This document shows positions 3,225-59,846 of a stretch of 64,000 nt of DNA, piece by piece. Source of the DNA: Sphingobacteriales bacterium. Lineage in GTDB: Bacteria > Bacteroidota > Bacteroidia > Chitinophagales > CAIOSU01. The notes beneath the pieces were generated by a model. The model was not told the origin of the DNA. It saw only the letters and a program-made list of their open reading frames with translations, and did not search any database. The translations under genes and the position numbers were made by a program. The stretch is from NCBI GenBank assembly GCA_027483645.1, contig JAIXUD010000002.1, positions 248,001 to 312,000 on the forward strand. Reading direction: 5' to 3'. Each line of letters opens with the position of its first letter. Position 1 is the stretch's first letter.

Positions 3225-6053
3225 CTACTTGGGATACTTTATGTCAAAATATTCAAAGTAGGTGCCAGCCTCTTTGTTGATAATGATTTTGTTGAAATTG
3301 ATATCGCTCACCAGCATCAACTGTAGCGATCCGGCAGGGAATTTGGCCAATGCATCGCTCTGCGAAACGGCGTTCAAGTATGTGCGGCCCTTATCCAAAC
3401 TCTCAAAGCTCTTTACCAGTAGCAAGTTGTTGCCATCGGGTAGTGCCAAGGCATCCACCTTAAGTGATTCTAAGCTCCGGTTTACATCATTGTATTGGGC
3501 CAATGCGGTACTTACGTCGGTAAGCTTCAGGGTGCTATCCTTTACTACCACCATAAAGAAGTGGCGCGAATCGACATCAAATTCGTAGCGCAACATATTG
3601 TTTTCCCGCTTCACTACTACGTCTTCGCTTTTCTCAATGTAGGATAAAATCTCCTCGGCCTTAGCTTTTACATCGTCGTTCGGGTATTTGGCCACGATGT
3701 CTTTCAAAGCTTTTTTGTATTCGCCCAAGTCCGCTATTTGGCCAATGATGAAGGCATTCAGCAAATCATACTTTGGTTTCAGGTGGTTGTTGGTTAGGTA
3801 CAAGCTGTCGGCCAGGCGTATCTGTTCCATAGCTTCCTGCAAGCGGTTTTCGCGGTATAGCTGGAAGGTGTTCAAATAATGCTGATCCACCGCCACCTTT
3901 ATTTGGTTGCTAGCTTCAAGGAAGTTAGGGTCTTTAATGATTTTGGCTGGCTTGCTATCTGGGTATTTGGTAAGCAACTCATTTTTATACTGCTCCGCCT
4001 TGGCGGTATTACCCAGCTTATCATAAATTAGGTACAGGTTGTACAGCACTTCCATTTCGTACTTGCTTCCTGGTATGCGTTTCAGCAACTCTTCGTAGGT
4101 AGCGGCTGCTTTGGGCAAGTTGTACAAATCGTATCGGTAGATGTTGGCCAAGGCATAATACGATTCTACCATTTTGCCGTTAAGTTGTTTCACATCTTCA
4201 GCACCCGGCAACGAGGCCATCAGCTTTTCCTTTTCGCCAAAGTAATCAAATTCATCGGTTGGGGCGGTTATGGAGTCGGTCTTGGTAGTATCGTTTGCAT
4301 TGTCTGCAAATGCTGCGGTCTTATCCTTCCTGCGCCAGTTGTCTTCCAGTTTGCGGGTGCCCCAGCGTTTCACAAAGTCATTATAGCCAGAGCTTTTCAA
4401 TGCGGTATTGTAAAAGTACCACTCGCCCTTATTGGCATTAGGGTTGTCATTATTGCCAGCGGTTGGTTTATTGGCAATAGCATCAATCGGCTGGTTCTGT
4501 TGGTCTTGGCTCTTTTTGAATTCCTCCTCTTGTTTTTTCAGGATTTCATCAACCATTTTCATCTTATCTACCTCGCTCATGCCAATAATTTTGAAGAGGC
4601 TGTCTTGCTCTTCAATAGCAGTTACATGCGTTACCAGCCTTTTCAATACTTCGCTGCGGCCCATAATATCGGGGTATCGTGGGTCTTCGTTGCTTATAAG
4701 GCCAGCAGCGCTAGTGTAAGGTGGCTGTGCCTCTACATACTCTTCTTTCTCAAAGTGCAGCTCGGCTAGTTTTAGGTACGATAATGCTTGCTGGTTGGTG
4801 TTGCTAGTGCTTACCTCAATCGACTTCTCCAAGTAAGCTATCGCTTCGTCTTTTTTACCACTTAATAAAGAAAGCTCGGCAAGTGAGTAATAGATTTGGT
4901 CATAGAAATCGACGTTTTTGTTCTCCTTCAACATTTTCTTCAGCAGGCGGATAATTTCTTTCTGCTCCATGGTATTATCGCGGGCAGCAATTTTGGCCAT
5001 GCTTATTTTGGCATTAAAGGCCATACGGTAATCGGGTTTGCCTTTCAGCACTTGCTTGTAGTACTCCACTGCTAGGGCGTTGTCGCCACGCACTTGGTAT
5101 ATCTGCGCTAGTATATAGTTGTAGCGTACCTTGCTGCGCTTTCTACCTTTATGTTCTAGCAGCCACTGTAGGGGCTGTATGGCTTTATCATAGTCGCCTT
5201 TTTGAAGGAAATGGTTTGCACGGGCCACCTCCAAATCATCGCGCAACCAGTGAGGAAACTGCTCATCGGCATCAATTAGCGTAAGCACCGCGGCAGCTTC
5301 TTTGTACTTTTTTAGCGCCGTGTAAGTATCCACCATCCATATCTTCGCATCGGGGCGCATAGGTTGGTGCTTGGCCCACCAAAGCGGGTCTTTTTCATAC
5401 TCTTCATTCTCCTCTTCGCCAGGGGTATCTAGCGAGCCACCTTCCTCAATTTTCTTCATTCGCTCTTCAGCTTCCCTATCTTGTTGCGCTTTCATTTGCG
5501 CAGCAGTCATCGGTTTGCCTTTCTTGCTTTTCGAAGAGGATGATGATTTACTAGAGCTTTTGCTTTTAGAAGAAGTAGGTTTTTTCTTTTTGCTGCTTTT
5601 CTTTTTGTTAGGTTTTTCTTTGAATTCGGTATTCACAAACTGGAAAGTTTCCAGCGCTGTTACATAATCACCTTTTAGATAGTAGCTCATGGCCACCAGC
5701 ATGTAGTTGTTGTCGGTATATATGCTGGCTTCGTGGTCTTTAATATTGGTGGATGCCTTTTTGATAACCATATCCAAATCGGTGCTGTACGAGGTGGCCA
5801 GCTCGGGGTTACGATCGGTGTAGATGGGCAATATCAGGGTGTAATCATCAACGTGGGCGGCACGCATGTTTTGCTGCACCGAGCCCATTTTAAGGTCGGA
5901 ATTGAAATAGGCGTTGTTCCGCGCCGTTATATCGTGGTACACTTGCTTGGCAAGGGGCAATTTCCTTTTCTGGTGGGCATAACAGCCCGAAACCACAAAT
6001 ATGATTGCAAAAGCGGCACCTATTAATGTTATTTTAGCGAATCTCAAAGGCAA
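3225..6053 (-). CDS. porW: T9SS accessory lipoprotein PorW/SprE, TPR repeat protein
   Basis: A large periplasmic lipoprotein of 942 residues needed for type IX secretion and gliding in known Bacteroidota (PorW in Porphyromonas, SprE in Flavobacterium). The signal peptide ends in a lipobox (VVSGC, Cys at about 24). The N-terminal region after it (RNNAYFNSD and on to the TPR-like block) matches my memory of the PorW/SprE family. Helical TPR-type repeats occupy most of residues 90-500 and 600-800. A very Lys/Ser-rich low-complexity linker sits near residues 148-200, followed by an acidic stretch. The C-terminal 100 residues form a separate small domain. It is the first gene of a unit with PBP1A and uvrC. 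The PorW/SprE name rests on family recall; the TPR-lipoprotein call is firm. Confidence 0.85.
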   Translation of the reverse strand: MPLRFAKITLIGAAFAIIFVVSGCYAHQKRKLPLAKQVYHDITARNNAYFNSDLKMGSVQQNMRAAHVDDYTLILPIYTDRNPELATSYSTDLDMVIKKASTNIKDHEASIYTDNNYMLVAMSYYLKGDYVTALETFQFVNTEFKEKPNKKKSSKKKKPTSSKSKSSSKSSSSSKSKKGKPMTAAQMKAQQDREAEERMKKIEEGGSLDTPGEEENEEYEKDPLWWAKHQPMRPDAKIWMVDTYTALKKYKEAAAVLTLIDADEQFPHWLRDDLEVARANHFLQKGDYDKAIQPLQWLLEHKGRKRSKVRYNYILAQIYQVRGDNALAVEYYKQVLKGKPDYRMAFNAKISMAKIAARDNTMEQKEIIRLLKKMLKENKNVDFYDQIYYSLAELSLLSGKKDEAIAYLEKSIEVSTSNTNQQALSYLKLAELHFEKEEYVEAQPPYTSAAGLISNEDPRYPDIMGRSEVLKRLVTHVTAIEEQDSLFKIIGMSEVDKMKMVDEILKKQEEEFKKSQDQQNQPIDAIANKPTAGNNDNPNANKGEWYFYNTALKSSGYNDFVKRWGTRKLEDNWRRKDKTAAFADNANDTTKTDSITAPTDEFDYFGEKEKLMASLPGAEDVKQLNGKMVESYYALANIYRYDLYNLPKAAATYEELLKRIPGSKYEMEVLYNLYLIYDKLGNTAKAEQYKNELLTKYPDSKPAKIIKDPNFLEASNQIKVAVDQHYLNTFQLYRENRLQEAMEQIRLADSLYLTNNHLKPKYDLLNAFIIGQIADLGEYKKALKDIVAKYPNDDVKAKAEEILSYIEKSEDVVVKRENNMLRYEFDVDSRHFFMVVVKDSTLKLTDVSTALAQYNDVNRSLESLKVDALALPDGNNLLLVKSFESLDKGRTYLNAVSQSDALAKFPAGSLQLMLVSDINFNKIIINKEAGTYFEYFDIKYPK

Positions 6054-28011: not shown

Positions 28012-29106
28012 ATGAAAACAACCAATATACTTGCCGCTAACATGGGTTTGATGCACGGCATCAACGATTGTACGGCAGGGTTTATATTAGGCAGTTTAGC
28101 TACCCTCCATCCTGACCCGGTTGCTGTAAGCTGGTGGATATTAATTTACAACGCACTCGCATTTGGCGGCCAAGCACCTTTGGCTATTTTCGCAGATAAG
28201 TTTAGCCAAGGCAAGCTACTGTTTACTTTGGGTATTGTATGCAACTTATCGGGTTTGCTATTAGCCATTACCTCCCCGTTGCTTGCGGTCGTTTTTTTAG
28301 GCATTGGTTCGGCATTGGTGCATATTGTTGGTGGCAGTGTTTGCCTTCAAGCATCGCCCGGCAAGGCTAGTGCAGCAGGTGTGTTTACCGCGCCAGGTGT
28401 GCTAGGTTTGGCATTTGGTGGGTTAATGGCGTTCACCGGTGTAAGCTTGGTTTGGCCCTTGGTGTTTGCGACAGCGATTGTTGCCTTAGCCGCATTGTCG
28501 CTTACTTGGCCCAGCACAGCCAAAGTTAACACAGTGGCCAGCTCTAGCAGCATACAATTGGATAGGCACGATTGGATAATGATATTGCTGCTCTTAGCCA
28601 TCGCCATGCGGTCCGCTATTTGGAATACCTTCCAACTCATCAACCAAGGTGATTATCATTTGCTGTTGCTACTGGCTGCCGCGGCCATGGGCGGCAAGTT
28701 GGTGGGTGGTTACTTGGCCGATAGGGTAGGGTGGCGCAATTACGCATTGGGAGCCCTGCTACTAGCTGCACCGCTGCTTACTTTTGGTGGTCGCAAACCA
28801 GTGTTGCTTGCTATTGGCGTGGGCTTGTTGCAGTCAGTTACCCCATTGGCGCTGGCTGCTATGCACCGCTCGTTGCCATACCGCCCGGCGCTCGCCACTG
28901 GGCTTACTTTAGGCTTAGCCATAGTGGTAGGAGGCATTCCGCTGCTTATAGGTTGGGATTGGTTTAGCAACCCGCTGAGCTTACTAGTTGCAATGCCACT
29001 GTTAGCTGCGGCATATTTTGGGCTGTTGAAATGGCAAGAAGAGCAATCAAAAAGGATAAGCATCGATGCCCAGCCAGTACAACACCGGGAACAGGCAGGC
29101 GGTTAA
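28012..29106 (+). CDS. Major facilitator superfamily transporter
   Basis: A 364-residue integral inner-membrane protein with about 11-12 predicted segments. NxGxxHGxND near the N-terminus and AIFADKFSQGK after the second and third segments resemble the MFS signature between helices 2 and 3; GGYLADRVG repeats it in the second half. The length is at the short end for MFS. The final 60 bases overlap the 3' end of the opposite gene at 29047-29379. Substrate unknown. Confidence 0.8.
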   Translation: MKTTNILAANMGLMHGINDCTAGFILGSLATLHPDPVAVSWWILIYNALAFGGQAPLAIFADKFSQGKLLFTLGIVCNLSGLLLAITSPLLAVVFLGIGSALVHIVGGSVCLQASPGKASAAGVFTAPGVLGLAFGGLMAFTGVSLVWPLVFATAIVALAALSLTWPSTAKVNTVASSSSIQLDRHDWIMILLLLAIAMRSAIWNTFQLINQGDYHLLLLLAAAAMGGKLVGGYLADRVGWRNYALGALLLAAPLLTFGGRKPVLLAIGVGLLQSVTPLALAAMHRSLPYRPALATGLTLGLAIVVGGIPLLIGWDWFSNPLSLLVAMPLLAAAYFGLLKWQEEQSKRISIDAQPVQHREQAGG

Positions 29107-29379
29107 TAGATTGGCAGCAATACTCGCAAGGGCTGCCTTTAGCACTCCCGTATTCCAATACAAATAAATGGCAACTGCTTCAGTGGCAAAAATAATGCCC
29201 TCTACCAGGTACCAATTTACCTCAAGCTCATGTACAGCATACGTACCAATAGGTAGGGTGAATACATTTACGAGGATAGAAAACTTTAGGGCGGCCCACC
29301 ATTCTTTCCTAAAAAACAGCAGCCATACTAGGTATTCCAAGATGATGGTAAGAGTAAGGTTGAAGAGTAATTGTGTCAC
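29047..29379 (-). CDS. Four-segment membrane protein of unknown function
   Basis: A 110-residue polytopic protein with about four hydrophobic segments. Conserved-looking motifs are EYLVWLLFFRKEW, FSILVNVFTLPIGTY, and an acidic Glu in the second half (IIFATEAVAIYLYW, then ASIAANLLTA). It starts with a GTG that overlaps the stop of the upstream 34-residue gene (GTGA), so translation is coupled. It is the last gene in the minus-strand unit 30648-29047. I recall similar membrane proteins alongside signal-peptide proteins of the type upstream here, but no function. Confidence 0.75.
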   Translation of the reverse strand: MTQLLFNLTLTIILEYLVWLLFFRKEWWAALKFSILVNVFTLPIGTYAVHELEVNWYLVEGIIFATEAVAIYLYWNTGVLKAALASIAANLLTACLFPVLYWLGIDAYPF

Positions 29380-29480
29380 TTCTTTTCGGTAAGTACTTTT
29401 AATAGATGTGCGAGCATGCCAATTGCTATGATACCCAGAGGTAAGGCAATCAATCCAACGGATGGAATTGCTAAATCCAT
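29376..29480 (-). CDS. 34-residue membrane microprotein
   Basis: A very short gene (ATG at 29480, TGA at 29378-29376) encoding MDLAIPSVGLIALPLGI followed by a second hydrophobic half and the charged tail VLTEKK, enough for one membrane span. Its stop codon overlaps the GTG of the next gene. It begins 4 bases after the stop of the 181-residue gene. This tight fit on both sides is the main evidence that it is translated. Function unknown. Confidence 0.65.
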   Translation of the reverse strand: MDLAIPSVGLIALPLGIIAIGMLAHLLKVLTEKK

Positions 29481-29484
29481 CGCG

Positions 29485-30030
29485 CTAGGCACTTAGTTTT
29501 TGAGCGGTAGATTGCCGCCTGCGTATTTGCCATATTAATAAACCAAGCGCAAAAGCTGAAATTGGAATAACGCCCCACCAGCCCAACATTTCTAAACCAT
29601 TTTTTTTCAAGGTATTATCGCCAGCCGCATTATCGTATATTATTTCAAGTATTACTTCTCGTTCGGTAATTTTTTTAATTGCTACTTTATCCAGCACAGT
29701 TAGCCTTCTCGTGTCATATTCTATGCCGCCTACTAGCTGGTTTCCTTTTATCTCGGTGCCACTCGTTTTATGCTTAGCAATAACGGTAGCCTCGCTGCCT
29801 CTCGGTGGCTGGTATTGTTCGCCTTGTTTTACAGTTACTGTTACTTCACCTGCTGGCTGGTAGCCACGATTGTATTTAAATGTTTGGTAGGTAATGCAGA
29901 AATCGTATTCAGGGTAATCGTTTAAGTTGGTAAAGGTAATCGTCTTGTATACAGTACCTTCCATAATTATATCGGCCTTAGCAGTTAAGGCTAAGCTGAA
30001 AATCATAAGTAACAAGATAGTGCGATACAT
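29485..30030 (-). CDS. Single-pass membrane protein with exported Ig-like domain, copy 2
   Basis: A 181-residue protein with a cleavable signal peptide ending at AKAD, an exported beta-rich domain (about 20-145) and one C-terminal membrane span (about 150-168) before a basic tail (IRRRQSTAQK). It is paralogous to the gene upstream: both mature proteins begin AD-x-I, have a TNL-x2-YP-(E/D)Y motif near residue 35 and a (K/Q)GN-(Q/S)-L motif near residue 95. Topology predicts the domain in the periplasm, anchored at its C-terminus. Not assigned to a known family by me. Confidence 0.8.
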   Translation of the reverse strand: MYRTILLLMIFSLALTAKADIIMEGTVYKTITFTNLNDYPEYDFCITYQTFKYNRGYQPAGEVTVTVKQGEQYQPPRGSEATVIAKHKTSGTEIKGNQLVGGIEYDTRRLTVLDKVAIKKITEREVILEIIYDNAAGDNTLKKNGLEMLGWWGVIPISAFALGLLIWQIRRRQSTAQKLSA

Positions 30031-30108
30031 AGGCGAAGTTTATGATAAATATAGCAATTGTTTATTTGTTCTTACTACCCAATATTACTGATTTTCAAAC
30101 ATCTATGG

Positions 30109-30648
30109 TTATTTTTTAGCAAATCGCCTTTGTAGTACAAAAATGAAAATGAAAAAACAACTGCTAGAAAGCAACAGCATAGTATAGCTAGCCCAAGTAT
30201 CTCCAAATAGTGCGCCTTTCTTGGTCTTGGCATGGTAATGATACCGATGGAGCTTCGTTTCCCATTTAAACTTATCACTGTTTAGGTGAGTTATCTCCAT
30301 TACATCAACCACATAATTCAGCTTTTTACCGTAATACTTATGATATGTACGTAGGGAATTACCTTGCAATCTTTTTGTGGTATCGTTTACATTTACTGCT
30401 TCAATTACTAAATAATCCCTGCCTTCTGTTTCGCATAAAATATGCTTACCCGGCTCAAAAAGAAATCGTTGCTTTACCGTATCCATTAAAAAGTCGTACA
30501 ATACCAAGTGGATTCGGTAATCAGGATAAGCAGCTAGATTGGTAATAGTATAACCAACATTAACCACGTTCTTGGTGGGCGGGCCAATCATATCAGCCTT
30601 AACTGTTAAAGAAGTGATCAACAATAACGATAGTAGCCAACGTACCAT
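30109..30648 (-). CDS. Single-pass membrane protein with exported Ig-like domain, copy 1
   Basis: A 179-residue protein with the same plan as the following paralogue: signal peptide to VKAD, exported domain starting MIGPPTKNVV, TNLAAYPDYRIHLVLYDF, LQGNSLR, and a C-terminal membrane span (about 155-172) with the basic end QRRFAKK. It is the first gene of a four-gene unit (179, 181, 34 and 110 residues) and lies divergent from the DUF2461 gene. I recall families of this ADxIxPP type in several phyla but know no function. Confidence 0.8.
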   Translation of the reverse strand: MVRWLLSLLLITSLTVKADMIGPPTKNVVNVGYTITNLAAYPDYRIHLVLYDFLMDTVKQRFLFEPGKHILCETEGRDYLVIEAVNVNDTTKRLQGNSLRTYHKYYGKKLNYVVDVMEITHLNSDKFKWETKLHRYHYHAKTKKGALFGDTWASYTMLLLSSSCFFIFIFVLQRRFAKK

Positions 30649-30730
30649 ATATGGTATTTTAGTATAAACGAAACAATGCTTTCTGCTATTGTGGGCAATT
30701 TACTATCTTTCAGTTAGAAACCTCCGTGTA

Positions 30731-31387
30731 ATGCTACAACTTGATACCCTGCAATACCTGCGCGAATTAAACGCAAACAATAACAAAACCTGGTTTGATG
30801 CGAACAAAAAGCGCTTTGAGACCGCCAAGAAAGACGTGGAGCAACTGGTAACCGAATTGCTAGCAGGCTGTGCTAAGTTTGAGCCAGCACTGGCCGATTA
30901 TAAGGCCAAGGATTGTGTGTTCCGTATTTATAGAGATGTGCGCTTCGCTAAGGATAAAACGCCTTACAAAAATAATATGGGAGCATGGTTTAATAAGGGT
31001 GGCAAAAAGGCACCGCATGCGGGTTACTACCTGCATATTGAGCCTGGAAATTCGTTTTTGGCTGGTGGTATGTACATGCCCGAGTCGGAGCAGTTGAAGA
31101 GTGTACGCCAAGAGATTGATTATAACACGGAGGAGTTCAACGGTATAATTGCAAATGCCAAATTCAAAAAGACCTTTGGCGAATTGGACGACCATAAGCT
31201 AAAAACTACCCCAAAAGGATACGACAAAACCCACCCAGAGATTGAAACGCTAAAGCAAACCAGCTTTGTGGTATCGCACAAGATAAGTGATGAAGAGTTG
31301 CTGGATAAGAAGTTTGTAGCCAAAGCAATTGCAACATTCGAAACGCTCCATCCGTTCAATGCTTTCTTAAACAGAGTACTTGAGTAG
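30731..31387 (+). CDS. DUF2461 family protein
   Basis: A 218-residue cytoplasmic protein. The family signature is LQYLRELNANNNKTWFDANK at the N-terminus, FRIYRDVRFAKDKTPYKNN, and the central GYYLHIEPGNSFLAGGMYMPE. I set the start at the ATG at 30731 (MLQLDTLQ); the frame is open 14 codons further but that part lacks family similarity. Biochemical role unknown. It is convergent with the OmpA-family gene. Confidence 0.92.
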   Translation: MLQLDTLQYLRELNANNNKTWFDANKKRFETAKKDVEQLVTELLAGCAKFEPALADYKAKDCVFRIYRDVRFAKDKTPYKNNMGAWFNKGGKKAPHAGYYLHIEPGNSFLAGGMYMPESEQLKSVRQEIDYNTEEFNGIIANAKFKKTFGELDDHKLKTTPKGYDKTHPEIETLKQTSFVVSHKISDEELLDKKFVAKAIATFETLHPFNAFLNRVLE

Positions 31388-31400
31388 CGTTGAAACAGTC

Positions 31401-31428
31401 ATGGTCCATCGTCCATGGTCCATCGTCC
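31401..31428 (+). repeat. Exact tandem duplication of a 14-mer (ATGGTCCATCGTCC)
   Basis: Two identical adjacent 14-base units lie in the 47-base gap between convergent genes. A relative in opposite orientation is at 59787-59806. Confidence 0.85.
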
Positions 31429-31434
31429 AAAAAA

Positions 31435-59688: not shown

Positions 59689-59846
59689 AGTATTTTCTGG
59701 AAAGCAACAGTGGAAGGCAGGTATTAATACAATACGCTAATTGCCGCTACTTGTTGGGGTTATTGAAAATATTGTGCCATTGTTTAGACCAAGGACGAAG
59801 GACCATAGCTTGCCTTGCCTTTGGCGATGGGACTGCTTCAGACTTG

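Follow-up and report, generated by a model that had tools for sequence, protein, structure and literature searches.

Carriers of the major facilitator superfamily (MFS) are usually seen as single-protein transporters, and Fsr, the fosmidomycin efflux pump of Escherichia coli, belongs to this superfamily. Small multidrug resistance (SMR) transporters of the EmrE type have about 110 amino acids, four helices, and an essential glutamate in helix 1. Among single-helix microproteins, CydX (37 amino acids) is reported to be required for cytochrome bd oxidase, and AcrZ to bind the AcrB pump (PMC4325964, PMC6005532, PMC7267776). The subject of this study is a locus of five genes in a 64,000-nucleotide (64 kb) stretch of a Sphingobacteriales genome (contig JAIXUD010000002.1, positions 248,001 to 312,000; called the window below, with positions counted from its first letter). 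The genes encode two exported paralogues (A and B), a membrane microprotein, a small protein with four predicted transmembrane helices (4TM), and an MFS protein that resembles Fsr. The recurring core at other loci is 4TM plus the MFS protein, usually with a bitopic partner. We infer that the five genes specify an inner-membrane transport module, probably multi-subunit, around an Fsr-like carrier, and give this reading, with its complex, transport, and direction of transport, a probability of about one half.

The five genes are as follows:

30109..30648, minus strand: paralogue A, 179 amino acids; N-terminal signal-peptide-like stretch, mature start ADMIGPP, TNLAAYPDY motif, C-terminal hydrophobic anchor and basic tail
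29485..30030, minus strand: paralogue B, 181 amino acids; signal-peptide-like N-terminus, mature start ADIIMEG, TNLNDYPEY motif, C-terminal anchor and basic tail
29376..29480, minus strand: membrane microprotein frame (MDLAIPSVG...), 34 codons from ATG; predicted N-out, one helix, basic tail
29047..29379, minus strand: 4TM, 110 amino acids, GTG start at 29379; predicted four helices
28012..29106, plus strand: MFS protein gene, 364 amino acids, convergent with 4TM; Pfam MFS_1

The original prediction for this DNA described A, B, the microprotein, and 4TM as a four-gene unit joined by 4-base gaps or GTGA overlap, which stands for the spacing between B and the microprotein (4 nucleotides) and for the junction of the microprotein with 4TM (GTGA, a 4-nucleotide overlap), but not for A and B, which are 78 nucleotides apart. 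The common plan of the two exported paralogues, a signal-peptide-like start and a C-terminal anchor, was confirmed, and their relationship is significant (BLASTP E 4e-5, 45 of 187 columns identical, 24%). The motifs AD-x-I (here AD(M/I)I), TNLxxYP-(D/E)Y, and GN-(Q/S)-L occur in both, and the 34-residue frame and the 110-residue four-segment protein are likewise present; with a start at GTG 29492, the microprotein frame would have 38 codons. Neither Pfam nor NCBIfam has a family that A, B, the microprotein, or 4TM matches above its cut-off, so that such genes would be annotated as hypothetical and their link to an MFS gene is easily missed. The prediction overlooked the MFS gene itself, which overlaps the 3' end of 4TM by 60 nucleotides on the opposite strand and is the most consistent neighbour of 4TM. 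The G+C content is 0.37 in A, 0.405 in B, 0.511 in the MFS gene, and 0.462 in the window.

Linkage of 4TM and the MFS carrier

In a draw of 395 genomes from the phylum, the 4TM profile matched 10 genomes, including a doubtful one that was kept (G460, a partial match in a 275-residue frame). The MFS profile matched eight, six of them at E < 1e-100, and 4TM is present in six of these six; the two weak matches, G516 and G520 (E 1e-14 and 7e-13), lack 4TM and were not counted, being judged to be MFS proteins of another kind. In a draw of 198 genomes from the order, the MFS protein was found in eight and 4TM in 15, and all eight MFS genomes carry 4TM. The hypergeometric probabilities of this co-occurrence, 4e-11 (phylum) and 1e-10 (order), ignore kinship and are guides only, and both searches scored only limited first-look candidates per genome, which leaves absences soft. 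Together the draws gave 12 different genomes with both genes, and 4TM and MFS are adjacent in all 12.

A fairer test of the linkage used 25 loci fetched from named genomes by MFS patterns alone, where 4TM lies within 1.1 kb of the MFS gene in 23 and no other frame among 4693 open reading frames (ORFs) was matched; the 4TM profile used here was built only from the window's order, and the E-value was 0.018 or below in 22 loci and 0.88 in L078. Of the two loci without a 4TM match, L066 begins inside the MFS gene and L072 is a 4.1-kb contig. The loci come from Bacteroidota (Runella, Spirosoma, Chitinophagales, and Prevotella), Ignavibacteria, Verrucomicrobiota, Chloroflexi lineages, Clostridia and Firmicutes, Parendozoicomonas, and a Diapherotrites archaeon. 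4TM and MFS share a strand in 32 of 33 pairs; only in the window are they on opposite strands. The four-gene unit first proposed holds as a recurring membrane unit but not as a fixed set, as the exact A-B-microprotein-4TM arrangement was not seen at any other locus.

The MFS protein of the window is a major facilitator by Pfam (MFS_1, 36 bits, cut-off 33.4), as are 10 of 11 members of alignment A3 (E up to 0.01), in which it is 30-38% identical to ten module MFS proteins. A profile of ten diverse module members aligned with Fsr over the greater part of its length (21% identity; hhalign probability 96.7, E 4.3e-10). Window residues H15, D19, and H104, which form the H-x3-D of helix 1 and the FH of a later helix, align with the same residues of Fsr and are invariant in 19 of 19 module MFS proteins. 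By these alignments the module MFS is Fsr-like, although Fsr was the sole MFS class compared and no preference over other classes is implied. Unlike the module genes, E. coli fsr has no 4TM annotated beside it and is flanked by ybaL and ushA. A search of PDB sequences with the MFS protein gave nothing at 0.01.

Microproteins and other bitopic partners

The third component around the 4TM-MFS pairs consists of small proteins with one near-C-terminal helix, a basic tail, and an aspartate that opens the outward segment or lies close to its first residue. By one rule, 32 such proteins are found in 66.9 kb around the 33 pairs, compared with 10 in the remaining 611.9 kb of these loci (0.478 versus 0.0163 per kb, 29-fold), and at least one is present in 20 of 33 loci; the count holds at least one doubtful row, a soluble-looking 98-residue frame in L084. 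An earlier motif-based count (31 near versus 11 far) contained false rows inside MFS and other genes and was replaced. By rule and eye together, free microproteins are present in 17 of the 33 loci, A/B-like proteins in 11, and either kind in 22. The sizes extend from microproteins up to proteins like A and B with a predicted beta-sandwich. Across both strands of the whole 64 kb, the single-anchor outward-Asp rule selects six ORFs, three of which are A, B, and the microprotein, a count that is descriptive and not a blind test, the rule having been shaped on related loci.

Genomes distant from the window's also have small bitopic proteins next to 4TM, with examples in Runella (two), Spirosoma (one to three), a Firmicutes locus (three), the genome G139 (two), the locus L082, and the archaeon. 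Some have the same few-base overlap of stop and start: the nearer bitopic gene of G139 overlaps the 4TM start by 4 nucleotides, as in the window, and that of L082 by 1 nucleotide. In six loci from Chloroflexota and Verrucomicrobia (L061, L069, L071, and L073-L075), 4TM has an extra N-terminal stretch (for example DVAGPG, then hydrophobic residues), which is possibly a microprotein fused to 4TM. The window microprotein has the bitopic architecture, stands where the G139 protein stands, and begins with DLAIP, or Asp-x-x-x-Pro; its position, topology, and start, rather than any profile, weakly suggest kinship with the other microproteins.

CydX and AcrZ are likewise only tens of residues long, have a single helix, and are encoded together with a membrane machine or close to it. 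The window microprotein resembles them in its one predicted helix and in the position of its gene beside a putative machine. The module microproteins differ in having an outward Asp-x-x-Pro-type segment in common with larger beta-sandwich proteins, in occurring in one to three copies, and in the company of MFS and 4TM. The copies at one locus are divergent, as might be expected if they were secreted membrane-active peptides exported by the MFS protein, with 4TM as the immunity protein, and 4TM does survive alone in two genomes (G072 and G155), as orphan immunity genes do. Such a self-immunity or peptide-export locus is nevertheless very improbable: the peptides retain both membrane anchor and basic tail and look as if they stay in the membrane, the large A/B-like proteins have the same architecture, and no peptidase or ABC exporter was seen beside the microproteins.

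The exported paralogues

Relatives of A and B at other loci have a domain between the signal peptide and the anchor and a motif resembling TNLxxYPDY, as in VTNLDSFPGYTF and LANVNQYPNYVF. In an alignment of 14 exported proteins, nearly all have Ala-Asp where the mature protein is predicted to begin. A matches the exported-protein profile A9 with E 5.9e-48, A itself being a row of A9, while a search with B in seven genomes of its family matched only the window's own genome. In some large exported relatives (the exported genes of L060 and L046, and L040 1827-2510), a second, microprotein-like Asp-x-x-Pro stretch (DDIVSP, GDVAPEP) lies just N-terminal of the anchor.

An AlphaFold2 model of B from six sequences has seven strands in a beta-sandwich and an anchor helix, with a mean predicted local distance difference test score (pLDDT) of 69.6 and a predicted template modelling score (pTM) of 0.48; three of the five models were below 50. 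The model resembles the luminal domain of HGSNAT (VIA-align Z 6.7), the extracellular domain of PepT2 (Z 5.7), and transthyretin (Z about 5) in having a beta-sandwich before a membrane helix, but no match reaches Z 8, and the tool cautions that scores under this value may reflect arrangements that are simply common. The best Foldseek match had E 1.2e-3 with a TM-score of 0.32. All these matches are in the range of widespread beta-sandwiches.

Strong exported relatives (E < 1e-6) were found in seven of the 198 order genomes, and 4TM is present in all seven; 18 genomes had matched, and 11 at E 1e-4 to 1e-3 were left out of this count, one of which (G192) looks unrelated on inspection. Relatives that keep the paralogues without the other two genes would have refuted the original prediction, and this is partly the case: the exported gene of G139 is on another contig, away from its 4TM, and that of G149 stands beside 4TM in a genome where no module MFS was found. 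That strong relatives are never without 4TM would also suit a 4TM acting as a chaperone- or insertase-like membrane partner that matures or anchors A, B, and the microprotein, with the MFS protein as client or passenger and no small-molecule transport. An exported protein goes with 4TM in G149 and G322, and no module MFS was found in either genome. We consider this alternative improbable, because 4TM is found without an exported relative in five genomes (G002-G005 and G155, in which the order-draw searches found neither an exported relative nor the MFS protein) and because MFS is the closest constant neighbour of 4TM in the MFS-selected loci.

The 4TM protein

The AlphaFold2 model of 4TM is a confident four-helix bundle (pLDDT 93.1, pTM 0.80). 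Three residues, Glu15 (in helix 1), Glu67, and Asn90, do not vary in either of the two alignments. When the N-terminal half of the protein was aligned with its C-terminal half, the probability was 95.7 (E 9.9e-9), compared with a best probability of 3.0 (E 0.015) in 40 control comparisons with MFS stretches. By this alignment, 4TM arose by duplication of a two-helix hairpin, and each half has Glu and Asn. A single-sequence search was too weak to find relatives in a first genome scan, and a later listing with the window 4TM as query (36 of 198 order genomes, E up to 0.1, mostly weak rows with internal stops) was not used as a count; the profile search was used instead. At the locus L070 (Chitinophagales), the normal 4TM gene is immediately preceded by an additional copy (5330-5635) that has diverged and has Lys in place of the usual helix-1 Glu.

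In length, helix number, and helix-1 Glu, 4TM resembles the SMR transporters, but the internal repeat with Glu and Asn in both halves sets it apart. No SMR family was among the Pfam matches of the window 4TM (E up to 1) or of 11 members of alignment A1 (E up to 0.5), a search of PDB sequences gave nothing at E up to 1, and the Foldseek PDB listing had no SMR entry and nothing better than E 3.1. 4TM could still be a small transporter or channel by itself, with the MFS and exported proteins serving the same cargo independently; 110 residues, four helices, and the invariant Glu15 would fit such a role, as would the 4TM kept alone in G072 and G155 and the copies beside a 161-residue protein described below. 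The absence of SMR matches in Pfam and PDB sequences and the tight coupling of 4TM to bitopic genes make it improbable.

A candidate multi-subunit MFS transporter

In the transport module that we favour, the Fsr-like MFS protein would be the transporting subunit and 4TM, with its duplicated hairpin and buried Glu and Asn, its core membrane partner. At least one bitopic protein, with an outward segment of the Asp-x-x-Pro type, would dock on this pair from outside. The short bitopic proteins may be helix-only microprotein subunits, and the window microprotein would be this small version; A and B would be the large version, with a periplasmic beta-sandwich for capturing, gating, or passing on cargo. 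The data establish the genes, their recurring neighbourhood, the MFS class, the internal repeat of 4TM, and the enrichment of bitopic proteins; a physical complex, transport, and its direction are inferred from them. More tentatively, and with less confidence, the module can be generalized to a multi-subunit MFS transporter of bacteria and at least one archaeon, composed of an Fsr-like carrier, 4TM, and interchangeable docking proteins with an Asp-x-x-Pro-type address.

Several findings weigh against this interpretation. The MFS profile was built from 4TM neighbours and the other profiles partly from loci found by 4TM, and the linkage counts lean accordingly. In the window the MFS gene is convergent with 4TM, so that the two do not share an operon. 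The neighbourhoods of the module loci have no substrate gene in common. Three of the 33 loci (L062, which is cut by a contig end, L083, and L084) were not fitted to the bitopic pattern by rule or eye, and the exported proteins with ADI starts in L079 and L080 are of doubtful kinship. Two profiles of other microproteins, one from 8 and one from 25 sequences, failed to recover the window microprotein, which ranked 45th among window frames (E 22, 2.0 bits). Finally, 4TM occurs without the module MFS in seven of 15 order genomes (G002-G005, G072, G149, and G155) and in four of 10 phylum genomes (G072, G309, G322, and the doubtful G460), and therefore has a role apart from the MFS protein.

If the generalized version is correct, the transporter would be an MFS machine of a kind not described before. 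Conserved small MFS partners, microproteins included, across distant phyla would help to approach orphan Fsr-like carriers and the question of what maintains membrane microproteins, and the module provides a simple test for a short microprotein, namely whether analogues stand at the same place in unrelated genomes. A literature search, with thin coverage of subscription papers, found no prior description of such a gene set.

4TM outside the full module

In G072 and G155, 4TM is alone between two genes, which we take to be those of SecA and an AraC-type regulator; G139, of the same genus, has the whole module between the same two gene kinds. A 4TM copy is found beside a 161-residue protein in five of five genomes: the window's own, where it is a second copy, and four of the same genus, which keep this arrangement without the MFS. 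In the window's own genome, outside the window, this locus reads:

L032 4963-5448: 161-residue helical protein
L032 4621-4953: 4TM, following the 161-residue protein

The 161-residue neighbour has a weak likeness to TPR_12, below cut-off. In a tree, the five 4TM copies linked to it form one supported group with the window 4TM (99/96), so that the second copy is closely related to it and has been recruited to a different neighbour.

Rejected family matches and flanking features

Several weak matches were rejected. These are GP46 for B (Pfam, 15.4 bits, cut-off 28.6), Spo7 for 4TM (9.8 bits, cut-off 27.5), and QatC for A, which was a weak stretch of the same 49 residues in NCBIfam (14.6 bits, cut-off 280) and PADLOC (14.8 bits, E 0.0025). 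DUF2070 matched two of 11 4TM relatives (best E 4.1e-4, with no cut-off comparison) and not the window protein. In PDB sequences the exported set gave matches at E 0.05 and above only, led by gp120. A plasmid search with five queries (three MFS, one 4TM, and one exported relative) gave no match.

The gene next to A, divergent from it, encodes a DUF2461 protein (30689-31387, plus strand; Pfam 261.5 bits). Beyond it, a dispersed repeat of CCATSGT heptads (CCATGGTCCATCGTCCATGG) is present at window positions 31399-31432 and 59789-59808. The repeat has four matches in the window with up to 3 mismatches (0 expected) and 97 in the genome with up to 2 mismatches, compared with 0 for a reversed control, and one copy adjoins the second 4TM gene of the same genome (C2:34057).

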